Below are positions 38,889-52,203 of a stretch of 52,393 bases of DNA, in pieces. Both the position numbers and the translations under genes were made by a program. The notes under the pieces were generated by a model, which saw nothing but the letters and a program-made list of their open reading frames with translations, did not search any database and was not told the origin of the DNA. Numbering within the stretch: position 1 is the first letter of the stretch; each line of letters begins with the position of its first letter. This DNA comes from Fibrobacter succinogenes (lineage in GTDB: Bacteria > Fibrobacterota > Fibrobacteria > Fibrobacterales > Fibrobacteraceae). The stretch lies in the NCBI RefSeq assembly GCF_902779965.1, contig NZ_CACZDK010000024.1, forward strand, positions 1 to 52,393. Direction: 5' to 3'.

Positions 38889-40190
38889 CTAGCTATGCAA
38901 GTACTCGATAATCGCGTCGTGGATGGTGGTGAACACGCTGCGCAGTTCGTCTTCGTCTTCTTCCAAGAGTGTCACGCGGAAGCCCTTGAGGTCTGTGCAG
39001 AAACTCGTGCTCGGCACAACGCAGATGCCCTTTGCGCCCAAGAGGTAATACACAAAGCGGTAGTCGAGGTTTGTGGTCTTGCTGCACCATTCTTCGACTT
39101 TCTTCTTGATAATCGGATTGTCGATTTTCAAGGTCTGGTGGCTGTTGAGCACGCCTTCGCGGAAGATGATGGTGTTGTAGAATGCACCGTAAGTCGGGTT
39201 GAAATACAGCTCCGGAATGTCGGAGAGAATTTCGTTGATGATGGCGCTGCGGCGTCCGATCTTTTCGTTGAGTGCGTCGCGGTGTTCCTTGAAACGGGCA
39301 TCGCCAAGCACTCGCGGAATCGTCATCTGCGGGAGCGTGGTTGAGCAGACTTCCACCATCTTGGCATTGTCGAGTGCACGGCAGAAAGCATCGAACTGCT
39401 CGTCCTTGTCGCGGTTGTAGTATTCGGCCCAGCCGCAACGTGCGCCCGGCCACGGGTATTCTTTAGAAATGCCCTTGAGTGCGATACCCGGAACATCGCC
39501 GATGTATTCGGCGAGCGCGTAAGCGTGAGCGCCATTGTACACAATCTTGTTGTAAATTTCGTCGCAGATAATGAACAGGTTATAGCGCTTAGCGATATCG
39601 ACCATCTTCTGGAGAATTTCGAGCGGGTAGACCATGCCGGTCGGGTTGTCCGGGTTCAGAATCAAGATACCAGCAATGCTCGGGTTGTACTTCACCTTGT
39701 TTTCGAGTTCTTCCAAGTCCGGGTACCAGTGGTTTTCGGGCTGGAGGCGGTAAGTAATCGGCGAAGTGTGTGCGTGAGCGGCTTCGGCAGAGCTGTGCGT
39801 CGAGTAAGCCGGTGCCGGTCCGATAATGCGGGTGGTCATCGACAAAAGGCCGTAAATTGTGGCGATTGCGTCGCCGAGGCCGTTGAAAAACAGGATGTCG
39901 TCGACGTTAATCTGAGCGCCGCCGAGTTTGTTGTTTTCTTTCACCAAGAATTCGCGCGTTTCGAGCATGCCCTTGGAGGGGCAGTAGCCGTAGCTTCTGT
40001 TCGTCTTGACCAAATCAACGACTATGTCCTTAATCCATTCGGGAAGCTGGCATTTCTTTTCAATTGGGTCACCGATGTTTTCCCAGTGGATGGGGAGGCC
40101 AAGCGCCTTGAGCTGGTTTGCCTTCTTCACGATTTCTCGGATTTCGTATGAAAGTTCCTTGGCACCTTCGCTCAACAATCTTCTACGCAT
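38889..40190 (-). CDS. PLP-dependent aminotransferase, class I/II
   Basis: The 433-residue cytosolic enzyme belongs to fold type I. ENIGDPI opens the core, GYCPSKGMLETREFL follows, ILNPDNPTGMVYP contains the Asn-Pro-x-Asn-Pro-Thr-Gly cofactor region, IICDEIYNKIVY has the pyridine-nitrogen Asp, and GISKEYPWPGARCGW carries the Schiff-base Lys (near 245). The sequence fits the large alanine/aromatic-type aminotransferases found in Bacteroidota-like genomes. The amino donor is not determined. AGGAG precedes the start. Two tandem terminators follow. Confidence 0.9.
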   Translation of the reverse strand: MRRRLLSEGAKELSYEIREIVKKANQLKALGLPIHWENIGDPIEKKCQLPEWIKDIVVDLVKTNRSYGYCPSKGMLETREFLVKENNKLGGAQINVDDILFFNGLGDAIATIYGLLSMTTRIIGPAPAYSTHSSAEAAHAHTSPITYRLQPENHWYPDLEELENKVKYNPSIAGILILNPDNPTGMVYPLEILQKMVDIAKRYNLFIICDEIYNKIVYNGAHAYALAEYIGDVPGIALKGISKEYPWPGARCGWAEYYNRDKDEQFDAFCRALDNAKMVEVCSTTLPQMTIPRVLGDARFKEHRDALNEKIGRRSAIINEILSDIPELYFNPTYGAFYNTIIFREGVLNSHQTLKIDNPIIKKKVEEWCSKTTNLDYRFVYYLLGAKGICVVPSTSFCTDLKGFRVTLLEEDEDELRSVFTTIHDAIIEYLHS

Positions 40191-40377: not shown

Positions 40378-40410
40378 AAAAAAATAAGGCAGCCTTTTAC
40401 GGGGCTGCCC
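40378..40410 (-). terminator. Terminator downstream of the small 40439 gene
   Basis: GGCAGCC 40388-40394 pairs with GGCTGCC 40403-40409. On the minus strand TTATTTTTT follows. Confidence 0.7.
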
Positions 40411-40438
40411 TTGAAACTTTTAATCTGAGTTTTTCGCG

Positions 40439-40579
40439 TTATGCTTTACAGATTTTTGTTTCTTTGGACAGCCCCATAATAGCTCGGGCTGCTGCCGGGC
40501 TTGCCGCCTTTGCTGCGTTAGCTGCAAATCTTGCATCTACTGCTGCTGCGATGATGTTCTGTCCAAAAATTTTATTCAT
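40439..40579 (-). CDS. Leaderless small Ala-rich protein or structured small RNA
   Basis: A 46-codon frame starts at ATG 40579 (MNKIFGQNIIAAAVDARFAA) and is rich in Ala, like an amphipathic helix. A consensus promoter (TTGACA, 17 nt, TATATT; 40615-40587) places the start site at about 40580, so any mRNA is leaderless. A terminator follows about 30 nt after the stop, giving a transcript of about 200 nt. TTTGGACAG near the start and CTGTCCAAA near the end of the frame are perfect complements and could close a long hairpin, so a noncoding RNA is a real alternative. No family is recognised. Confidence 0.5.
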   Translation of the reverse strand: MNKIFGQNIIAAAVDARFAANAAKAASPAAARAIMGLSKETKICKA

Positions 40580-40673: not shown

Positions 40674-42092
40674 CTAGCTTATTCTTCTTCTTCTATTTGC
40701 CGGGAACCGGTCATAGAATCGTTTCTTGTCTTCGTACATGTTGTTGTCTGCTTCGTGCAAGGCTCTGCGAATCTTGCCTCCGTGTTCGTCGTAATAGAAG
40801 CCGATTGCAAAACTGACTTTGCCCGGAATCATTGAGTCCTGACGGAGCTTTTCGACTTTAGCTTCAAGATCCTCTTTAGGCTGGTTGGTGGCAATAACGA
40901 GAAACTCGTCGCCGCCGGCACGGTAACAATCGCAACCGATGAATGTATCTCTCAAAAGATGAGCTGCGCTTTTCAATAATTCGTCGCCTGCATCATGCCC
41001 TTGGCTGTCGTTTATCGGTTTGAGGCCGTTCAAGTCCGCAAAGATTACCGCCAGGGAATCGTATGAAACTTCGCCCTTTATGAACTTCGAAATTTTGTTG
41101 TTCATGGAGTTGCGGTTCAATAGTCCTGTCAGAAGATCCTGGTTGCTGAGAACTTCAAGTTGGTTCAAAAGCCGATAGTTAGCAATTTCAGAGGCGATGA
41201 AAAATGACGAAAGCTCAAGCGTTTCCTTGATGTTCACCGTATTCGATGTGTCGAAGTTAGTGACCAAGATAAAGCCTAAGAGTGTCCCTGTATATTGGAG
41301 CGGTAGAAGCGCCACGGTTTCGATTTTTTCTTTGACGAGCAAATCGTACCACTTTGGGTTGGTTTCGCGGATAAGCTCAAGGTCTCTGCTGTTTGCTATC
41401 ATCAAACAGTACCTTCCGCGGAGTTGTTTAATCCAAGACCTAGCGTATTCTGTAAAGTCTACGTGTTTTAAATCTCGGATAGAATGTTGGTTTAATCCTG
41501 GTTTCAAGGAATCGCTAAATACGGACCAGGTGTTTTCGTTGAAATCCGTTAGCAGAACGCAGCAATAGCTGGCACCACAAATATTGCGGATGTCCTCGAT
41601 AACTTCGTCCATAGTTTTGTGCAAATCTTTAGTACCACGGAGTTTTATGCAGGTTTGCAAAACGCTAGAAGAAGTCTTTGACGATATGTTCGACATTTCG
41701 TCAAGATTTTCTTCGAACGATAGTTCCTGCGAAAAAGTACAGTATGCCTTTTCGGGATCCTCGATATTGAGAGGCATCATGTTCATGTTGATGCTGAAAT
41801 CATAATATTCGGGGCGGATATAGGCATGAATGGGCTTTTTCTTGATTGCGCATTCGTAGCAGAAGTTCTCGAAATTGAGTTCCTTCTTCATGTAATGTTC
41901 ATAGCGTCGACCGGGGACGAATTTTTCCTTGAATATTACATTACCATTGTCATCGACTTTTTCCATTGAACGAACATAATCTTCGTTGCCTGCTTCGATT
42001 CGTACCGTCCTGGCCTTGCCATCATTGCGTTTTTCGATCGATACGATACATGTCATCGTGTGGAATTTGTCAACAAGTTCTTGTAGATCCAT
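40674..42092 (-). CDS. Diguanylate cyclase-like protein, subtype A (copy A1)
   Basis: The 472-residue cytoplasmic protein has three parts: a PAS-like N-terminal domain (1-140, with a FCYECA pair of Cys), a GAF-like domain (about 150-305) and a GGDEF domain (about 315-472). The active site reads RAGGDEFLVIA, with FADLNGLKPIND and GHDAGDELL upstream, so cyclic-di-GMP synthesis is likely. The residues where the inhibitory RxxD would be (FIGC) do not match, so product inhibition through that site is not expected. The closing HEADNNMYEDKKRFY is conserved in all five copies. It is the last gene of the A2-A1 stretch, 16 nt after A2. Confidence 0.93.
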   Translation of the reverse strand: MDLQELVDKFHTMTCIVSIEKRNDGKARTVRIEAGNEDYVRSMEKVDDNGNVIFKEKFVPGRRYEHYMKKELNFENFCYECAIKKKPIHAYIRPEYYDFSINMNMMPLNIEDPEKAYCTFSQELSFEENLDEMSNISSKTSSSVLQTCIKLRGTKDLHKTMDEVIEDIRNICGASYCCVLLTDFNENTWSVFSDSLKPGLNQHSIRDLKHVDFTEYARSWIKQLRGRYCLMIANSRDLELIRETNPKWYDLLVKEKIETVALLPLQYTGTLLGFILVTNFDTSNTVNIKETLELSSFFIASEIANYRLLNQLEVLSNQDLLTGLLNRNSMNNKISKFIKGEVSYDSLAVIFADLNGLKPINDSQGHDAGDELLKSAAHLLRDTFIGCDCYRAGGDEFLVIATNQPKEDLEAKVEKLRQDSMIPGKVSFAIGFYYDEHGGKIRRALHEADNNMYEDKKRFYDRFPANRRRRIS

Positions 42093-42108
42093 AAATTTAG
42101 AGGGTTTA

Positions 42109-43518
42109 TTAGCGTTTTTTCAGTTCTGGATGTTTTGCATAGAACTGTTTTTTATCTTCGTACATTCGAACGTCGGCTTCGTGCATTGCAGTGCGAATAT
42201 CGCCGCCGTTTCCGTTATAGTAAAAACCTAATGAGAAACTTACATTGTTAATATCCTGGGATTTATCGTGAATTTTTTTGACTTTTGCTTCAATCCCCTC
42301 TTTCGGCGTGTCGGTGATGATAATCAAGAATTCGTCACCACCGGCTCGATAGACCTCTCCTTCTGTAAAGGTATCCTTCAAAATGTCAGCGGCGCTTTTT
42401 AGTAAATCATCGCCGGCATCGTGGCCCTTAATGTCGTTGACTGGCTTGAGACCGTTCAGGTCGGCAAAGACAACGGCTAATGACTTGTATGAAACATCAC
42501 CCTTCAAGAACTGTGAAACTCTGTTGTTCATGGAATTACGATTCTTGGCGCCTGTCAGAAGGTCCAAGTTGCTAAGCTTTTCGAGCTTGTTCAAAAGCAA
42601 GTAATTCGAAACTTCAGAGGCTATAAAGAATGACGAAATTTCAAGCGTTTCTTTTATCTGTAATAATTTAGATGTATCGAAATTTGTAACCCAAATAAAG
42701 CCAGCAATTCTGTTGTTGAATTCGAGTGGCAACAAAACAAGGCTGTCAATGTTGTTTTGCATTAAGGATGCATGCCAATTAGGATCCAACTTTTTGATGG
42801 TTTCAAAATCGTCTTCGTTTTGAAGCATCAAGCAGTTGCTTCCGGCGAGAATATCGACCCATGTCTTTGCATAGTCGATAAAATCATTGGTTACAATATC
42901 TCGAATGGAATGCTGGTTTGAACCTTCCTTGACGGAATCGCTAAAGACAGAACAGGTGCGTTCGTTAAAGTTGGTGAGCAAAAGGCAACAGTAGTTAGCA
43001 CCGCAAATTTCACGGATGTCATAGAGGACTTCGTCCATGGTTTTTTGCAAGTTTGTGGCACCGCGGAGCTTAATGCAGGTCTTGAGCACTGTCGTTGATG
43101 TTTCGACAGAAAGCTTGGCCATGGCATCGTAGTCCACTTCGGGCGAAATACTTTGCGAGTATGTACAATATGCCTTGTTCGGGTCGTCGATATTCAGGGG
43201 CAGCATAATCAGGTTGATGCAAAAATCAAAGTGCTCCGGACGAATATAGGCGTGAATGGGTTCCTTTTTGACGGCACACTGGTAGCAGAAGTGTTCGAAA
43301 TTCAATTCCTTCTTCATGTACCGTTCATAACTAGTGCCGGGTTTAAAAGGCTCCTTTGTTATAGCGTAACCATCGCGAATGGCTTGTTCCGTTGCTTCAA
43401 TGAATGGCTTATTAGCATATTCGTAAAGAATACGCCCAAGCTTTCCGTCTTTGCGCTTTTCGACGGAAACAATGCATGTCATTGAATAAAATGTATCGAC
43501 GAATTTTTGCAGATCCAT
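42109..43518 (-). CDS. Diguanylate cyclase-like protein, subtype A (copy A2)
   Basis: This 469-residue paralogue has the same PAS-like, GAF-like and GGDEF layout. The N-terminal domain contains FCYQCAVKKEPIHAYI, and the GGDEF site is RAGGDEFLIII with FADLNGLKPVND. No RxxD inhibitory site is present (FTEG instead). LRGATNLQKTMDEV in the linker to the GAF domain is the subtype-A mark (subtype B has LRSTKNF). It begins 2 nt after the stop of copy B3 and is probably translationally coupled. No membrane segment is seen, so the input signal must be cytoplasmic. Confidence 0.93.
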   Translation of the reverse strand: MDLQKFVDTFYSMTCIVSVEKRKDGKLGRILYEYANKPFIEATEQAIRDGYAITKEPFKPGTSYERYMKKELNFEHFCYQCAVKKEPIHAYIRPEHFDFCINLIMLPLNIDDPNKAYCTYSQSISPEVDYDAMAKLSVETSTTVLKTCIKLRGATNLQKTMDEVLYDIREICGANYCCLLLTNFNERTCSVFSDSVKEGSNQHSIRDIVTNDFIDYAKTWVDILAGSNCLMLQNEDDFETIKKLDPNWHASLMQNNIDSLVLLPLEFNNRIAGFIWVTNFDTSKLLQIKETLEISSFFIASEVSNYLLLNKLEKLSNLDLLTGAKNRNSMNNRVSQFLKGDVSYKSLAVVFADLNGLKPVNDIKGHDAGDDLLKSAADILKDTFTEGEVYRAGGDEFLIIITDTPKEGIEAKVKKIHDKSQDINNVSFSLGFYYNGNGGDIRTAMHEADVRMYEDKKQFYAKHPELKKR

Positions 43519-43520
43519 AT

Positions 43521-44939
43521 TTAGCGCTTCCTGTTTTCTGGGAATTTTGCATAAAATTGCTTTTTATCTTCGTACATACGAGTATCCGCTTCTCGCATAG
43601 CTGCACGGATATCGCCATGGTTTTCGTCGTAATAAAAGCCGACTGCAAAACTGACTGGGTGTTCTGGATCGTATGCCCTTTGACGCAATGCTTCGATTTT
43701 TGTCTCGATGTCTTCTTTGGGCTTGTCCATGGCTATAACCACGAATTCGTCGCCACCGGCGCGGTAAATTTCGCAGTCGGTGAATATATCCATCAATGCC
43801 TTTGCAGCGTTCTTAAGGAGCTGGTCGCCCGCATTGTGGCCAGCTCCGTCGTTTACGGTTTTGAGGCCGTTCAAGTCTGCAAAGACTATTCCGTATGCGT
43901 CTGGAACGCGCTCGCGACCACTTACAATCTTGAGGACGCGGTTGTTCATGGCATTGCGGTTCTTGACGCCTGTCAAAAGGTCTGTGGAACTCAACATTTC
44001 CAGTTTTTGTAACAACTGGTAGTTCACAATTTCAGAAGCAATAAAGAACGTCGTCAGTTCAAGGGTTTCCTTGATGTGGTCGGTATCTTTAATGTCGAAA
44101 TTTGTAGACCAGATAAAGCCGATGACTTCGTTGTTGTACTGGAGCGGGAAAAGAACGATGCTATCGATTCCTGCATCTCGCATGGATTTGCACCAGCGAG
44201 GATTGCGTGCTCTGACAGCTTCCATATCGGATTCGTTTTTGATGATAAGGCAGTTGCTACCACCAATTGTATCCATCCAAGTTTTAACAAGGTCTGTAAA
44301 TGCATCATTTAGGTAATCTAAGAGCGTTCGCTTATCCACGTGAGGATCGCAACTTTCGCTTAGCAATGAACATTTGTTTTCCTTAAAGTCCGTCAACATG
44401 ATGCAGCAGAAGTTTGCAGCGCAGATGACACGGATATCGCGGATAACTTCGTCCATGGTCTGGAGGAAGTTCTTGGTGCTGCGAAGCTTGATACAAGTCT
44501 TCAGGACGTCCGAGGTCGTTTTTGCAGAAAGGTTTGCCATCTGCTCTACGCTAGCTTCGGTCGAAACTTCTTGCGTGTAGGTGCAGTAGCACTTGTTCGG
44601 ATCGTTAAATTCGAGAGGTAGGCTAAATATGTTGAACCACACATCGAACCTGTCGGGATGGATATAGGCGTGCATCGGCTTCTTGAGGACCGCGCTGTTG
44701 TAAATGAAATGCTCGAAGTTCAAGTCTTTGGGTATATACTTGGTATATTCTTGGCCGGGCACGAACTTGTTGCCGAAGGGCATATCGATCGGATTTTCGC
44801 TGCTTCTTTCGTAAGACGAAACGTAAGCTTTGTTCCCGACTTCTATGCGCATTGTTCCATAGCTTCCGTCGGGGTTCTTTTCAACAGACATGATACAGGT
44901 CATTGAGTCGAACTGGTTAACGTATTCCTGTAGATCCAT
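43521..44939 (-). CDS. Diguanylate cyclase-like protein, subtype B (copy B3)
   Basis: This 472-residue paralogue has FEHFIYNSAVLKKPMHAYI in place of the two-Cys motif of subtype A, and LRSTKNFLQTMDEVI. Its GGDEF site RAGGDEFVVIA, with GRERVPDAYGIVFADLNGL upstream, carries a short insertion found only in subtype B. It is the first gene of a B3-A2-A1 transcription unit. AAGGAG lies 6-7 nt before the ATG, and the promoter region 44940-45085 is shared with a divergent gene. Confidence 0.93.
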   Translation of the reverse strand: MDLQEYVNQFDSMTCIMSVEKNPDGSYGTMRIEVGNKAYVSSYERSSENPIDMPFGNKFVPGQEYTKYIPKDLNFEHFIYNSAVLKKPMHAYIHPDRFDVWFNIFSLPLEFNDPNKCYCTYTQEVSTEASVEQMANLSAKTTSDVLKTCIKLRSTKNFLQTMDEVIRDIRVICAANFCCIMLTDFKENKCSLLSESCDPHVDKRTLLDYLNDAFTDLVKTWMDTIGGSNCLIIKNESDMEAVRARNPRWCKSMRDAGIDSIVLFPLQYNNEVIGFIWSTNFDIKDTDHIKETLELTTFFIASEIVNYQLLQKLEMLSSTDLLTGVKNRNAMNNRVLKIVSGRERVPDAYGIVFADLNGLKTVNDGAGHNAGDQLLKNAAKALMDIFTDCEIYRAGGDEFVVIAMDKPKEDIETKIEALRQRAYDPEHPVSFAVGFYYDENHGDIRAAMREADTRMYEDKKQFYAKFPENRKR

Positions 44940-45085
44940 AACATCTCCTTCATGGCAAAAAGGACCTTCATAAAAATAATATGAAATGATTGATTTGGGT
45001 GTGTTTTATGTCTCTTTTTTTCATAAATTTGACCCCAAAAGGGTGATATTCCTCACATTTTGTAAGATTTCTGTATTTGTTGCTT

Positions 45086-45502
45086 ATGATTCATGACTCA
45101 ATTTACGATCCGATTCGCAAAAAAGAGGTCCCATTGACCCCCGAGGAACATGTCCGGCAGGCGACCGTGCGTTACTTGCTTGATGTGGTGAAAGTACCCG
45201 AGCATCTGATTGCGGTGGAATTTCCGCTTTCGACGGTTGAAGCGAAAACGGCGGATCGCGTGGATATTCTAGTGCATAATTTCCGCGCGGGTGCGTCTCT
45301 TAACAAGCCATGGCTTTTGGTGGAATGCAAAGCTCCGGGCGAATACACGTGGCCGGTGTTGCAGCAGCAACTGAATAAGTATTTGCAAGTTTTGACGCCG
45401 AGCTACGTGATGCTTGCGCTTGGCGATTGCGTGCGCTTTTTTGCTCTAGATCCAGAGACTCGGCGTTTTATAAAAATTGACAACTTGCCTCTATTCGAAT
45501 AG
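45086..45502 (+). CDS. Stand-alone HsdR_N-type nuclease-domain protein
   Basis: The 138-residue protein matches the N-terminal domain of type I restriction R subunits (HSDR_N_2). EHVRQATVRYLLD opens it, and the PD-(D/E)xK core is RVDILVHNF plus LLVECKAPGEYTWPVLQQQ. Helicase and specificity parts are missing, and no hsdM or hsdS is near, so it cannot be a restriction system by itself. Stand-alone copies are common in Bacteroidota-like genomes and their role is unclear. ATG 45086 is preferred over the upstream TTG codons. It separates two blocks of GGDEF genes and converges with copy A4, 59 nt apart. Confidence 0.85.
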   Translation: MIHDSIYDPIRKKEVPLTPEEHVRQATVRYLLDVVKVPEHLIAVEFPLSTVEAKTADRVDILVHNFRAGASLNKPWLLVECKAPGEYTWPVLQQQLNKYLQVLTPSYVMLALGDCVRFFALDPETRRFIKIDNLPLFE

Positions 45503-45561
45503 CAATATTCGTCCGAAAATATTTGGCGATTTACGAGATTTGTAAAAGAAGAATCTAGAGG

Positions 45562-46977
45562 CTACAGTTTTTTTCTTTTTTCGGGATGTCGTAAGTAGAA
45601 TTGTTTCTTGTCTTCGTACATGCGCACATCGGCTTCATGCATGGCCGTACGGATATTGCCACCGTTTTCGTTGTAATAGAAACCGAGTGAAAAACTTACG
45701 TTGTCTGTATTTTCCGAATTTTCGCGTAGCTTTTGGACTTTTGCTTCGATGTCTTCTTTGGGCTGATCGAGGATGATGACTAGGAATTCGTCGCCGCCGG
45801 CACGGTAGATTTCGCTTTTGCTGAAAGTCAACTTTAGCGCGGATGATGCTTTTTTTAGTAATTCATCGCCCGCATCATGCCCATATTTATCGTTCACGGG
45901 CTTTAGCCCGTTCAGGTCGGCAAATATAACTGCAAGGGATTTGTACTGCACCTTACCGTTCATAAATTGAGAAACTCTATTGTTCATGGAATTGCGGTTT
46001 TGTACGTTTGTCAAAAGGTCCATGTTGCTGAGGTATTCAAGCCTTCCGACAAGCTGGTAGTTTGCAATTTCGGAGGCGACAAAGAATGTAGTGAGTTCGA
46101 GCGTTTCCTTGATGTTTAATGTGTTTGATACATCGAAATTTGAGACCCAAATAAATCCTAAAATGACATTGTTGTACTCTAGGGGCAAAAGCACAAGGCT
46201 TTCGATATTTGCGTTGGTGAGGGATCTATGCCAGTTCGGAAAGTTTTGCTCGATTGTTTCAAGGTCTTCCTTGTTTTTGATGATCAAGCAACTGTTACCG
46301 GCAAGGAGGTGAAGCCATGTCTTTGCGTAGTCCACGAAGTCTTCTGTTATATAGTCACGGACGGAACGATGGTTTGAATTTGCTTTAATGGAGTCGCTAA
46401 ATACGGAATAGGTATGTTCGTTGAAGTTGGTCAGCAGAACACAGCAGTAGTTTGCTCCGCAAATTTTGCGGATGTCTTCGATGACTTCATCCATGGTCTT
46501 TTGCAAGTTCGTGGCACCGCGGAGCTTGACGCATGTCTTCAAGACGTTTTTAGACATTTCTGCTGAAAGCATTGATTCTTCGCTGGACTCACTTTCTTCT
46601 GAAGTTTCCTGCGACAAGGTGCAATACGCCTTGTTTGGATCTTCTATTCCCAGGGGGAGCAATATCATACTTATGTGGATATTGGATTGCTCGGGTTGGA
46701 TAAATGCTTGGACCGGTTTTTGTTCAATGGCGCACTCGTGGCAGCATCGCTCAAAGTCCAAAGCTTTGGGCATGAATCTCTCGTAATTGGAGCCTGGTTC
46801 GAATTTTGTTTCAAAACTTGATTTGCCATTTCCGTTCAGCTTTTCCAAAAATTCGATATATTGCTTGTTGGCTATTTCGATGCAAATATTTCCTGCTTTC
46901 CCGTCATTTCTTTTTTCGACAGAAAGGATGCAGGCCATTGTTTTAAATTGTTCGATAAAATTCTGTAAGTTCTTCAT
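45562..46977 (-). CDS. Diguanylate cyclase-like protein, subtype A (copy A4)
   Basis: This 471-residue paralogue has the subtype-A LRGATNLQKTMDEVI. In the N-terminal domain the Cys pair is FERCCHECAIEQKPVQAFI, and a Ser/Glu-rich run (SEESESSEES) replaces the usual spacer before the GAF domain. The catalytic site RAGGDEFLVII and FADLNGLKPVND are intact, with no RxxD upstream (FSKS). Its ATG directly follows the stop of copy B5 (TAAATG at 46980-46975) with no Shine-Dalgarno, so expression depends on coupling to B5. Confidence 0.93.
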   Translation of the reverse strand: MKNLQNFIEQFKTMACILSVEKRNDGKAGNICIEIANKQYIEFLEKLNGNGKSSFETKFEPGSNYERFMPKALDFERCCHECAIEQKPVQAFIQPEQSNIHISMILLPLGIEDPNKAYCTLSQETSEESESSEESMLSAEMSKNVLKTCVKLRGATNLQKTMDEVIEDIRKICGANYCCVLLTNFNEHTYSVFSDSIKANSNHRSVRDYITEDFVDYAKTWLHLLAGNSCLIIKNKEDLETIEQNFPNWHRSLTNANIESLVLLPLEYNNVILGFIWVSNFDVSNTLNIKETLELTTFFVASEIANYQLVGRLEYLSNMDLLTNVQNRNSMNNRVSQFMNGKVQYKSLAVIFADLNGLKPVNDKYGHDAGDELLKKASSALKLTFSKSEIYRAGGDEFLVIILDQPKEDIEAKVQKLRENSENTDNVSFSLGFYYNENGGNIRTAMHEADVRMYEDKKQFYLRHPEKRKKL

Positions 46978-48390
46978 TTAGCGGGTCCTGCTTTCGGGGT
47001 GTATTTCGTAAAAATGTTTCTTGTCTTTGTACATGCGGGAGTCGGCTTCTCGCATGGCGGCGCGGATATCTCCACAGTTTTCTTCGTAGTGGAAGCCTAG
47101 TGCGAAGCTGACGTTGCTTGGGTCTTCCGCCATTTTATGGAGTTGCTCGATTTTGGATTCGATGACTTCTTTTGGGGTTCCCATGAATATAATTACGAAC
47201 TCGTCGCCGCCGGCACGGTAGATTTCGCTTCCGCTGAAAATTGTTTTTAACGTGTCGGCTGCTTTCTTTAGCAATTTGTCTCCGGCGTTGTGTCCGTTAT
47301 TGTCGTTGACGGTCTTGAGGCCGTTTAAATCGGCAAATATGACGCCATAGGAACTTGGCATGCGTTCGCGTCCGGTCACGATTTTGAAAACGCGATTGTT
47401 CATGGCGTTTCGGTTCTTGACGCCTGTAAGGAGGTCTGTGGAACTCAGCATTTCGAGTTTTTGTAAAAGCTGGTAGTTCGCCACTTCCGAGGCGACAAAG
47501 TATGTGGTGAGTTCGAGCGTTTCCTTGATTCGATCGGTATCTTTTGTGTCAAAATTTGTTGCCCATATAAAGCCGATGTTCTCGTGATTGTACTGTAGTG
47601 GGAATAAAACGAGGCTCTTGATTTTGGCTTCTTGCATGGAAGCGTGCCAACGGGGGTTGCGTGCCTTGAGCTCTTCCATATCTATGTTGTCCTTAATAAT
47701 AAGGCAAGAACTTCCAGCAATGGTCTCGGGCCATGATTTAACGATGTCAATAAAAGAATCGTTCAAGAAATCATTTAGTGAATAATGGCCTAGTTCAGGG
47801 GCGGCGCTTTCGCTTAGCAATGAACAAGAGTTTGTCTTGAAATCGGTGAGCATGATGCAGCAGAAATTTGCACCGCAGATGGTACGGATGTCCGCGATGA
47901 CTTCGTCCATTGTTTTGAGAAAATTCTTGGTGCTGCGGAGTTTGATGCATGTCTTAAGAATGTCCGAAGTTGTCTTTGCGGATAAGTTTGTCATTTGGTC
48001 GATGTTGACCTTGGTGGACATTTCTTGAGTGTAGACGCAGTAGCCTTTGTTTGGTACTCCAAAATCAACCGGAACGCTAAAAAGGTTGAACCACATGTTG
48101 TATCGATCAGGATGGACATAGGCGTGCATGGGCTTGTTGAGAACGGCACAGCTATAGATAAAATGTTCGAAGTTCAAGTCTTTTGGAATATAAGCAGTGT
48201 AATCTAGTCCAGGCTGAAATGTCAGATTAGGTCGTCCGTCGTTGAATTCGTTTTTCTGTTCGAAAGATGAAAGGTAGGCCTTGTTACCGGTTTCGATACA
48301 TATTTTGCCGTAGCTCCCATCGGGTTTCATTTCGATAGATATGATACAAGCCGTAGAACCAAATTCATTTATAAATTCGTCTAAATCCAT
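46978..48390 (-). CDS. Diguanylate cyclase-like protein, subtype B (copy B5)
   Basis: The start is ATG 48390, preceded by AAAGGGAGAA; the frame is open to 48441 but those codons lack a ribosome site. The 470-residue protein is a close paralogue of B3: FEHFIYSCAVLNKPMHAYV, LRSTKNFLKTMDEVI and the subtype-B insertion GRERMPSSYGVIFADLNGL. The GGDEF site RAGGDEFVIIF is intact. It is the first gene of a B5-A4 unit. Upstream (48391-48542) no regulatory motif is evident. Confidence 0.93.
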   Translation of the reverse strand: MDLDEFINEFGSTACIISIEMKPDGSYGKICIETGNKAYLSSFEQKNEFNDGRPNLTFQPGLDYTAYIPKDLNFEHFIYSCAVLNKPMHAYVHPDRYNMWFNLFSVPVDFGVPNKGYCVYTQEMSTKVNIDQMTNLSAKTTSDILKTCIKLRSTKNFLKTMDEVIADIRTICGANFCCIMLTDFKTNSCSLLSESAAPELGHYSLNDFLNDSFIDIVKSWPETIAGSSCLIIKDNIDMEELKARNPRWHASMQEAKIKSLVLFPLQYNHENIGFIWATNFDTKDTDRIKETLELTTYFVASEVANYQLLQKLEMLSSTDLLTGVKNRNAMNNRVFKIVTGRERMPSSYGVIFADLNGLKTVNDNNGHNAGDKLLKKAADTLKTIFSGSEIYRAGGDEFVIIFMGTPKEVIESKIEQLHKMAEDPSNVSFALGFHYEENCGDIRAAMREADSRMYKDKKHFYEIHPESRTR

Positions 48391-48542: not shown

Positions 48543-49841
48543 CTATTGAACGGTTGAAATGACTTCGCCGTCGGCGAGGCGTGTCTTGATGGTGTCGCCG
48601 CTCTTGAGTTGGCTTGCTTTGCGGATGAACTTCCCGTTTGCGTCTAGCGTGAGCGAGTAGCCCTTGGCGAGAGTCGTCTTGGGGTCTGCGTTTTTGACTT
48701 TTTCGCTGACGAGTTCGAACTCAGATTTTGCGAGGTCGAGGATTTTGCGTGTACCTTGCTTTAAACCTTCGTGGTTGCGGTCGAGACGTTCGTGCTCGGA
48801 CTTTATATAAAATGCAGTGTCCTTCTTGATGGAGGCGGCGATGAGCACGTGCTTCGATTTCTCGTTCTGGATGAGCCCGAAAACTTTTTGCTGGAGCTGG
48901 TTTCCCATCGTGCCGAGTTGCTTGTTGTTCTTGGTCAAGAGGTCGCGGGCGCCATCGGCAATGCTTGCCATCGCGTCTGTCATGCGGTTCCAGCTATCCG
49001 TAACGCGTTCCACGAGACGTTTGGCGCAGTCTGTGGGCGTGATGCACGAGAGGTAGGCGACTTCGTCCAAAAGGCAACGGTCGATTTCGTGACCGATTCC
49101 CGTAAAGACGGGGATGGGGTAGTTTGCGACCGCGCGGCAAAGCGCTTCGCTATCGAAAAAGTTCAAGTCCGTCTTGGCACCGCCGCCGCGCACAATACAG
49201 ACAACATCTAAGTTGGGATCACTTTGGAGTTGCTCCAGTGCGGCGATGATGCTCCCCTCGGTTTCGTTCCCTTGCATTCGAGCATAGACGGTCGTGACTT
49301 TGAATGCAAACGGTGAAGCTTCAAGTCGCGTGGTGAAGTCCTTGTACGCGGCCGTGTTTTCGCCGGTAATAAGCCCCACGCGGAGCGGCACTTCGGCAAG
49401 TTCTAGCTGCTTGTTCTTTTCGAGCAGGCCTTCCATCGCAAGGCGCTTCAAGATGGCGCTCTTCGTCAATGCGAGTTCGCCAATCGTGTAAATTGGGTCG
49501 ATGTCCAAGATTTGCGCTTGCAACTTGCCGTATGGGATGTACAGTTCTGCACGCACGAGAAAGTTGACCTTCAAGTCGTGCTTGAGCGTAAACGGCTGCG
49601 AAAGGTTGGATATCTTTGCAAGAATCGCTTCGTATTTGGTGGTGTAGCAGTAAAGGGCGAGGGTGGCCTTCGGCTTCACGTCGCCATCGGCGAAGTCCGC
49701 AATGCTCAGGTAAACGCCCGATGGCTTTTCCGCAATTTGCGAAATGACCCCGTGCACCCAAACCGCAGGTGTTGATTCTACGGTGTTCTTGAGCGAACGC
49801 ATGTACTGCGTGACCGAAAATGTACGAACTTCTTGATCCAT
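48543..49841 (-). CDS. xseA: Exodeoxyribonuclease VII large subunit
   Basis: XseA, with XseB, degrades single-stranded DNA into oligonucleotides. The 432-residue protein starts with the OB-fold segment VWVHGVISQIAEKPSGVYLS. The catalytic region follows with RVGLITGENTAAYKDF, CIVRGGGAKTDLNFFDSE, FTGIGHEIDRCLLDEVAY and TPTDCAKRLVE. A long coiled-coil part leads to the C-terminal KGYSLTLDANGKFIRKASQLKSG. No xseB is visible nearby. The gene is flanked upstream by two dispersed palindromes. Confidence 0.95.
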   Translation of the reverse strand: MDQEVRTFSVTQYMRSLKNTVESTPAVWVHGVISQIAEKPSGVYLSIADFADGDVKPKATLALYCYTTKYEAILAKISNLSQPFTLKHDLKVNFLVRAELYIPYGKLQAQILDIDPIYTIGELALTKSAILKRLAMEGLLEKNKQLELAEVPLRVGLITGENTAAYKDFTTRLEASPFAFKVTTVYARMQGNETEGSIIAALEQLQSDPNLDVVCIVRGGGAKTDLNFFDSEALCRAVANYPIPVFTGIGHEIDRCLLDEVAYLSCITPTDCAKRLVERVTDSWNRMTDAMASIADGARDLLTKNNKQLGTMGNQLQQKVFGLIQNEKSKHVLIAASIKKDTAFYIKSEHERLDRNHEGLKQGTRKILDLAKSEFELVSEKVKNADPKTTLAKGYSLTLDANGKFIRKASQLKSGDTIKTRLADGEVISTVQ

Positions 49842-50307: not shown

Positions 50308-50463
50308 TTGGCCCGTTATGTTTTTATCCTTACAAAACACTTATACTTTTGTACGCTCAGTGCGTTTGAGTTGTATTTGTAAGCCCTTCAAAAAATTTTC
50401 TGCTTTATCACTCCGGCATTGGTGCTTGGGGGAGTATATGCACTTAACCTAAGGAACAATAAC

Positions 50464-52203
50464 ATGAATTTAAGATCCCAAAAGGTGCTTTTTGCGCTTG
50501 CTGGTGTAATTTCTGCATCGGCTTTTTTGACTGCTTGCGGTGACGAAATCACTCAACTTACAAATTCTGACGTAGGCGCAGTTACTTCGTTTAATGATCT
50601 GGGCGATTGCAATTCCCAGAATAAAGGCCGTATAGTTTATGTAGATAGTTCCGATGCTGTTTACCTTTGTGCTGACAGTGTCTGGAAAGAGGTGAATCTT
50701 TCTGAGGTCAAGGGCGCTAACGGCAAGGACGGTGCCAATGGTAAAGACGGCAAAAATGGTACCGATGGAAAGAATGGAGCTGACGGTAAAGATGGCTCTA
50801 ATGGAAAGGATGGTGCCGATGGTAAAGACGGTAAGGATGGGGTCAATGGAACATCCTGTACCGTAGAGGCTCTGAAAGACGGTTCAGGATATGACGTGCT
50901 ATGCGGTGGCAAAAAGGTCGGATCTCTCATGAACGGTAAGGAAGGCGCAAAAGGTGCTGATGGTAAAAATGGTACTAACGGCACGAACGGTGAAAATGGA
51001 ACCTCTTGCGAAGGCAAAGCTAACGAGGATGGTTCGGTCACGATATCTTGTGGCGGCAAGGATGTTGGAACTATCAAGAACGGTGAAAATGGCAAGAACG
51101 GCGAAAACGGAACCTCTTGCGAAGGCAAAGCTAACGAGGATGGTTCGGTCACGATATCTTGTGGCGGTAAGGTTGTCGGAACCATCAAGAACGGTGAAAA
51201 TGGCAAAAATGGCGAAAACGGAACGAATGGCACGAGTTGCAGTATCGTGAGCGACAAGGATGGTGTTGTCACCTTGAAATGCGGTGACGTGGAAACGGAA
51301 CTCTACAAGGCAGTATGCGGTGTTACACCGTATGACCCGGCGAAGAACTTCTGCTTTAATATGGAACTGTATGACTTGTGCGATGGAAGTGCCTATACTC
51401 CGGGCGATGATCTCTGTGAGAGTGGAAAGTTGCAGAAACTCTGCTATTTTAAGGATAAATCTCCAATCCGCTATGACGTACAAACCCAATTCTGTTATGG
51501 CGAAAAAGTATATGAACGTTGTGGCGGCAAGGAATATGATCCTACGAAGTTTGATTGTGTAGGAAATGTGTTGCTGGAAAAAACGACTTGCAAGGGAGTA
51601 GAATACGACCCGGAAAAAGAATTCTGCGCAATGAGGGGGAAGGTCGAAATTGGCGCTTATAAAATGGTAACTATCGGTACTGATGATAAAGCGCAGACTT
51701 GGATGGCGCAAAACTTGGATTACGACGTTGATGGCAGCCAATGCTATGACGGAGATTGCTCCTATGGCCGCTATTACAGCTGGAAGGCTGCTATAGATAA
51801 TAGCACGCCTGATGTTAACGGAAACATTCAGGGAGTTTGCCCCGATGGATGGCACTTGCCTACAAAAGCCGAGTGGGAACAGCTTATTTCGAATGCGCAT
51901 GAAAACGGGAGACTTGAGGCGGGTAAAGTGCTCAAGGATTCAGTTGGTTGGAGAAACTCCGACTTCAAGGGAAACAATGCGAGCGGCTTCACTGCGGTTC
52001 CTGCTGGCTACATGGTGTCTAATGCCGGTCGCAGCTTCTATCGCGAAAACGCTTTCTTCTGGAGTGCTACTGAGTTTGTGGACGAAAAACTCTGTACTAA
52101 TTGTGCGTACTTTATGGTCTTGGCCTACAACAGCGACGGTGCGGCTGTGTCCAATGATTATAGCCAGGTGTATGAAATGTCAATTCGTTGCTTAAAGGAC
52201 TAG
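50464..52203 (+). CDS. Collagen-like lipoprotein with C-terminal FISUMP domain
   Basis: The start is ATG 50464 (579 residues), after AAGGAACAATAAC. An earlier in-frame ATG at 50419 would disrupt the signal. A signal with lipobox FLTAC leads to about 50 residues of a small N-terminal domain. A Gly-x-y collagen-like part follows (GANGKDG, GKNGTDG, GADGKDG and similar; about 80-290), broken by Cys-containing modules such as SCEGKANEDGSVTISCGGK. A Cys-rich stretch (about 280-390) with CGxxYDP motifs leads to one FISUMP domain (about 400-579: WMAQNLDYD, GRYYSWKAA, CPDGWHLPTKAEW, FFWSATEF, SIRCLKD). It is probably a surface-exposed fibrous lipoprotein; its function is unknown. Confidence 0.9.
   Translation: MNLRSQKVLFALAGVISASAFLTACGDEITQLTNSDVGAVTSFNDLGDCNSQNKGRIVYVDSSDAVYLCADSVWKEVNLSEVKGANGKDGANGKDGKNGTDGKNGADGKDGSNGKDGADGKDGKDGVNGTSCTVEALKDGSGYDVLCGGKKVGSLMNGKEGAKGADGKNGTNGTNGENGTSCEGKANEDGSVTISCGGKDVGTIKNGENGKNGENGTSCEGKANEDGSVTISCGGKVVGTIKNGENGKNGENGTNGTSCSIVSDKDGVVTLKCGDVETELYKAVCGVTPYDPAKNFCFNMELYDLCDGSAYTPGDDLCESGKLQKLCYFKDKSPIRYDVQTQFCYGEKVYERCGGKEYDPTKFDCVGNVLLEKTTCKGVEYDPEKEFCAMRGKVEIGAYKMVTIGTDDKAQTWMAQNLDYDVDGSQCYDGDCSYGRYYSWKAAIDNSTPDVNGNIQGVCPDGWHLPTKAEWEQLISNAHENGRLEAGKVLKDSVGWRNSDFKGNNASGFTAVPAGYMVSNAGRSFYRENAFFWSATEFVDEKLCTNCAYFMVLAYNSDGAAVSNDYSQVYEMSIRCLKD
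50989..51212 (+). repeat. 111-bp in-frame duplication inside the collagen-like gene
   Basis: Unit 50989-51100 and unit 51101-51211 are nearly identical, offset by 111 bp (37 codons: GENGTSCEGKANEDG to GTIKNGENGKN). A third, more diverged module follows. Confidence 0.75.

Follow-up and report, generated by a model that had tools for sequence, protein, structure and literature searches.

The window analysed here is the whole of contig C24 [RefSeq:NZ_CACZDK010000024.1], 52,393 nt of a 4.09-Mb Fibrobacter succinogenes genome whose near relatives are Fibrobacter. Five paralogous ORFs sharing one layout occupy positions 40674-48390 of its minus strand, as stated in a preliminary description of this DNA. 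They are designated B5, A4, B3, A2, and A1 (Table 1) and specify proteins of 469-472 aa, each combining a PAS-fold domain, a probable GAF domain, and a long helix with an intact GGDEF domain. The interval from XseA to the aminotransferase gene contains no regulator or target gene. Signals from promoter and terminator scans of the array were not above shuffled expectation, and an Rfam scan of it gave no convincing RNA element or riboswitch match. An identical B-A / HSDR_N / B-A-A order is found in an independent assembly, G092; the array is therefore not a product of chance or of an assembly error.

Table 1. Genes of the five-gene array and its boundaries (positions in the window)
Feature	Positions	Strand	Remarks
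B5, PAS-like/GAF/GGDEF, 470 aa	46978..48390	-	Leads the upstream cassette; additional copy, PAS fast-evolved
A4 (A' type), PAS-like/GAF/GGDEF, 471 aa	45562..46977	-	Start codon adjoins the B5 stop (0 nt); additional copy, PAS fast-evolved
HSDR_N_2 ORF, 141 aa	45077..45502	+ (opposite to array)	Between A4 and B3; genus-wide backbone, landmark for the cassette sides
B3, PAS-like/GAF/GGDEF, 472 aa	43521..44939	-	Leads the downstream cassette; clusters with gene 1 of the three-gene arrays in G060/G070
A2 (A' type), PAS-like/GAF/GGDEF, 469 aa	42109..43518	-	2 nt after B3; orthologue of gene 2 in the three-gene arrays of G060/G070
A1, PAS-like/GAF/GGDEF, 472 aa	40674..42092	-	16 nt behind A2; orthologous to the usual A of two-gene genomes
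XseA (exodeoxyribonuclease VII large subunit)	48543..49841	-	Locus boundary, upstream
PLP-dependent aminotransferase (PRK06855)	38889..40190	-	Locus boundary, downstream

The five proteins could be aligned end to end with a mean column identity of 70%. Pairwise identities range from 48 to 69%, so that the term near-identical, used in the preliminary description, does not apply. The division into two subtypes, on the other hand, is real: identity is 69% between B3 and B5, 58-63% among the A proteins, and 48-53% between A and B proteins, and the subtypes form two strongly supported clades across 26 Fibrobacter genomes. LRGATNL, named earlier as the A signature, is present in A2 and A4, but A1 reads LRGTKDL instead. 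The B-specific insertion preceding FADLNGL exists, but consists of a single residue in the alignment of the five. Likewise, the spacing of 0-16 nt between neighbours holds within B5-A4 and B3-A2-A1 (0, 2, and 16 nt), but a gap of 622 nt, which holds an opposite-strand ORF, separates A4 from B3. A sixth paralogue, at 43% identity, is located elsewhere in the genome and belongs to a separate group, C.

Pfam recognized the GGDEF domain (PF00990) in all five proteins with 79-92 bits, compared to a cut-off of 23.8 (E-values of 1e-22 to 1e-26). The GAF domain (PF01590) exceeded the gathering score in A1 and A4 only and stayed below it in A2, B3, and B5. No PAS match was obtained for the N-terminal domain of any of the five, nor was a PHY domain detected in them. 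A2 was modelled with AlphaFold using 32 relatives (pLDDT 86). Residues 136-313 of the model, a region with a weak GAF match by sequence in three of the five proteins, resemble the GAF part of a sensor kinase (Z 17.8, rmsd 2.9). When residues 1-140 were folded alone (pLDDT 87), PAS structures headed the list of structural matches (best Z 11.6, rmsd 2.6, 104 residues aligned); in the model, the N-terminal domain has a PAS fold. The GAF-helix-GGDEF part has structural counterparts in solved sensor-linked diguanylate cyclases, and a sequence search with the PAS-GAF part against solved structures gave nothing significant.

Among the best structural matches are PAS- or GAF-linked cyclases, the phytochrome-linked enzyme of Idiomarina (5llw/6et7), Dcsbis (4zmu), PleD, and WspR, which share with the array proteins soluble sensors, a long helix, and dimerising intact GGDEF domains. 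The array proteins differ from them in having no PHY or receiver domain, no PAS domain recognized by Pfam, and no I-site, and in being coupled tandem paralogues. The PAS-GAF part resembles that of phytochromes by fold only, with an rmsd of 11-12 over both domains and 6-13% identity. The proteins are of a known kind, and the variant is their organisation: an inherited coupled pair gathering at one locus, with diverging sensors.

The catalytic motifs FADLNGLK, ND, GHxAGD, and YRAGGDEF are intact in the consensus of both subtypes, A and B, based on 60 Fibrobacter sequences. Metal and GTP residues (FAD, ND, GHxxGD, GGDEF) are kept in at least 95% of the A and B sequences and in all five window proteins, and the same applies to the guanine-specificity Asp of GHxAGD. 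The RxxD inhibition site is absent from the segment before GGDEF, FxxCEIYRAGGDEF, with no R at -9 and no D at -6. As the motifs are conserved, the specificity Asp is kept, and RxxD is missing, the likely product of these enzymes is c-di-GMP, made without classical product inhibition. Feedback by the product through an I-site is ruled out by the absence of RxxD. In Hypr GGDEF proteins, which are cGAMP synthases, Ser replaces the guanine-specificity Asp (GacA Ser347/348) (PMC6456294); this reading is ruled out by the Asp retained here.

The distribution of the family was determined using the PAS-GAF part as query. Members are present in 32 out of 167 Fibrobacterota genomes, representing only two of 40 genera, and the second genus has a single copy per genome. 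In rumen Clostridia the family is common, a single Ruminococcus genome having as many as 12 matches. Since it is rare in Fibrobacterota and common in rumen Clostridia, the family probably entered Fibrobacter from the latter. Clostridial members (Ruminococcus, Butyrivibrio, Pseudobutyrivibrio, Lachnospiraceae) show the same three domains, 28-42% identity in the sensor part, and often several copies and tandem pairs per genome. They differ from the array in the independent origin of their pairs, in some EAL fusions, and in a few Butyrivibrio copies with SGDEF instead of GGDEF (three in the Butyrivibrio group). The tandem pairs of Butyrivibrio (L080, L081, L083) and Ruminococcus (L177, L178) occupy other positions in the tree; pairing therefore arose more than once. 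The Butyrivibrio pairs (L080:8521-9975, L081:8529-9935, L083:8547-9935) are spaced by 1 nt or -4 nt. In one Ruminococcus member (L182:6920-9190, 756 aa) EAL follows GGDEF, and the sensor module therefore also drives possible phosphodiesterases. The literature searched contained nothing useful on tandem diguanylate cyclase paralogues or on the PAS-GAF-GGDEF family in Ruminococcus.

Within Fibrobacter, arrays were detected in 26 genomes. Twenty-two contain B-A, two B-A-A (G060 and G070), and two, this genome and G092, the five-gene form. B precedes A in all 26 with a spacing of -4 to +3 nt, which supports the earlier suggestion that B and A are made together through coupled expression. The pair is an ancestral inherited cassette, probably with translational coupling. 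The locus had been regarded as an unusual concentration of such genes; the B-A unit as such is not peculiar to it.

XseA, HSDR_N on the opposite strand, and the aminotransferase gene constitute a backbone present throughout the genus, which is empty in many genomes. The cassette lies between HSDR_N and the aminotransferase gene in nine genomes, between XseA and HSDR_N in three, and on both sides of HSDR_N only in this genome and G092. In ten others (L093, L094, L098, L099, L102, L104, L105, L107, L108, L109) the cassette occupies an unrelated locus and immediately follows a GH5-CBM4_9 cellulase gene of the same orientation; eight of the ten have a DUF4423 gene on its other flank. These counts cover the array genomes other than G035 and G079. 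Most array genomes also contain a distant C-group paralogue, and the tree places this group with Ruminococcus sequences. In the present genome (L112:5212-9947, contig C11), the C-group gene is directly downstream of the gene for a single 1047-aa protein in which a GH5 cellulase domain is joined to a cellulose-synthase-like GT2 domain. This GH5-GT2 neighbour is also found in G092, and the dinB gene on the opposite flank is conserved more broadly.

The preliminary description had derived the array from a doubled B-A unit plus an additional A copy. Its pairings were not rejected by AU tests (B3+B5, p 0.18; A2+A4, p 0.24), and further tests of A2+A4, one using GAF+GGDEF and one using only PAS, neither showed nor rejected the clade. 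In contrast, the tests rejected A1 and A2 as sisters (p 1.6e-5) as well as monophyly of the array A genes (p 7e-5). The third A gene is thus no simple extra duplicate, and a recent tandem duplication giving rise to A1 and A2 is ruled out. From these rejections, A1 corresponds by orthology to the usual A gene, and A2 and A4 represent older separate lineages. The extra copies are A2, A4, and B5. Because A2 and B3 group with the G060/G070 copies and A4 and B5 fall outside this grouping, the doubling appears to predate the divergence from these genomes.

For the history of the locus, trees of the flanking genes were used in place of an rpoB species tree; the family search gave rpoB in only 16 of 30 genomes. 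The HSDR_N tree unites the upstream-type genomes G089, G075, and G070, whereas the XseA and aminotransferase trees place G089 with G018/G022. Synonymous divergence from G092 climbs along the array, from 0.36 in B5 and 0.60 in A4 to 0.91 in B3, 1.17 in A2, and 1.02 in A1. This conflict and this gradient indicate that recombination has probably acted at the locus. Two histories fit the two-sided array, a duplication of B-A' across HSDR_N or a crossover within HSDR_N between upstream-type and downstream-type chromosomes. That the crossover, and not duplication in situ, produced the array is a serious possibility, although we do not favour it. The genus includes genomes with the cassette on one side or the other and genomes with the empty site, a single crossover would suffice for the order in the window, and the grouping of the three upstream-type HSDR_N alleles as well as the gradient from B5 to A2 agree with it. 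However, B5 groups weakly with downstream-type genomes, the HSDR_N allele of the window belongs to the downstream-type group, and the sister relationships expected from duplication, B3+B5 and A2+A4, are not rejected.

To locate the divergence among the copies, branch lengths were computed for each domain on a fixed topology. On the stems of the extra copies, change was found mainly in PAS, the PAS/GAF/GGDEF lengths being 0.60/0.19/0.13 for A4, 0.40/0.15/0.08 for A2, and 0.35/0.11/0.18 for B5; the A/B split gave 0.63/0.25/0.24. No concentration in PAS was seen on the B3 stem or on the stem of the four-genome A1 group. Ranked by PAS share among 64 sizeable branches, the A4, A2, B5, and A/B-split branches as a set occupy places 3, 5, 6, and 8. 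Their mean PAS share is 0.75 compared to 0.42 for the median branch (permutation p ~0.001, post hoc, the test having been devised after the stem lengths were seen). Whole-gene dN/dS values relative to G092 are 0.07-0.16 for all five genes, indicating purifying selection. Diverged sensors combined with conserved catalytic ends suggest internal sensors feeding one common signal, and the earlier idea of a sensory array gains support as far as the diversification of sensors is concerned. Faster change in PAS could also reflect relaxed constraint rather than new ligands.

The reading we favour, with some reservation, is that the array specifies jointly produced soluble c-di-GMP synthases with diversified cytoplasmic sensors, derived from an ancestral B-A cassette by doubling and enlargement. 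Each protein would join a PAS-fold sensor and a GAF domain through a long signalling helix to GGDEF, and would form c-di-GMP from GTP as a dimer, without an RxxD inhibition site. B and A, judged by their spacing, would be translated from one message by coupling. The extra copies, B5-A4 and A2, may have been retained as their PAS domains diverged, probably reading different cytoplasmic cues, while GAF and GGDEF would have stayed under constraint. All five would feed one c-di-GMP pool. The likely output is control of the fibre-degrading lifestyle; this is deduced from c-di-GMP levels about 2.5-fold higher on cellulose in a different strain, F. succinogenes S85 (PMC6851124), a measurement in which the array proteins were not involved.

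A related but more demanding proposal holds that B and A are obligate heterodimers, in which each subunit binds one GTP and two PAS/GAF sensors gate one active site; such an enzyme would act as a coincidence detector, and the array would be a set of heterodimers. B-A linkage is unbroken in 26 genomes, at two unrelated loci and with near-zero spacing, and Ruminococcus and Butyrivibrio evolved tandem pairs independently. GGDEF domains are active as dimers, and the E. coli interactome includes specific heteromeric contacts between GGDEF domains of different proteins, although the partners there differ in domain make-up, are in some cases degenerate, and are not described as coupled paralogue pairs (PMC5635695). 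While heterodimerisation of B and A appears plausible, its obligate form is rather unlikely: both proteins possess the complete catalytic motifs and could each be active as a homodimer, the second genus keeps a single copy, and joint transfer of the cassette as a unit would produce the same linkage. It is more doubtful still that a varied set of obligate two-input B/A detectors was assembled from B-A cassettes with diverged PAS domains gathered at one locus, and that Butyrivibrio and Ruminococcus from the same habitat arrived at this solution independently.

Alternatively, the copies could simply increase the total capacity for c-di-GMP synthesis, their differences being drift. In favour of this, the catalytic domains are conserved between the copies, and the genome contains many GGDEF domains (31) but few EAL domains (4, three of them in ORFs also containing GGDEF), with one PilZ match. 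Such a dosage effect is unlikely, since the copies are old and diverged and yet remain under purifying selection, and since the change that accompanied duplication lies mainly in the sensor domain, unlike on the orthologous branches compared. Degenerate or regulatory proteins binding GTP or c-di-GMP without synthesis are very improbable here, common as GGDEF proteins without activity are in general, because catalytic positions are conserved across A and B and all five genes are under purifying selection.

Bacteria often possess dozens of diguanylate cyclases, which raises the question of why so many are kept. The array offers side-by-side paralogues with a largely known order of origin, purifying selection, and sensor-concentrated divergence, in a rumen fibre digester of a genus with higher c-di-GMP on cellulose. 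Five colinear proteins are suited for a direct test of whether cyclase multiplicity corresponds to sensor diversity, and the inherited B-A coupling provides a natural test case for heterodimeric diguanylate cyclases.

A second cyclase cluster is present in the same genome (C13:20416-28314), with three GGDEF ORFs (796, 825, and 570 aa) on one strand within 8 kb. In the window, a secreted-looking protein with long collagen-like GKDG/GENG repeats is encoded beside XseA (50419-52203). Upstream of the aminotransferase gene lies an ORF of 46 codons, 15 of them for alanine (MNKIFGQNIIAAAVDARFAANAAKAASPAAARAIMGLSKETKICKA, 40439-40579, minus strand). It is preceded by a promoter-like site with a good -35/-10 match (40615-40587, minus strand) and followed by a GC-rich hairpin with a T run, a predicted terminator (40386-40411, minus strand). 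The region looks like an alanine-responsive attenuation leader, and a strict pattern search detected similar ORFs in 11 of 51 genomes.
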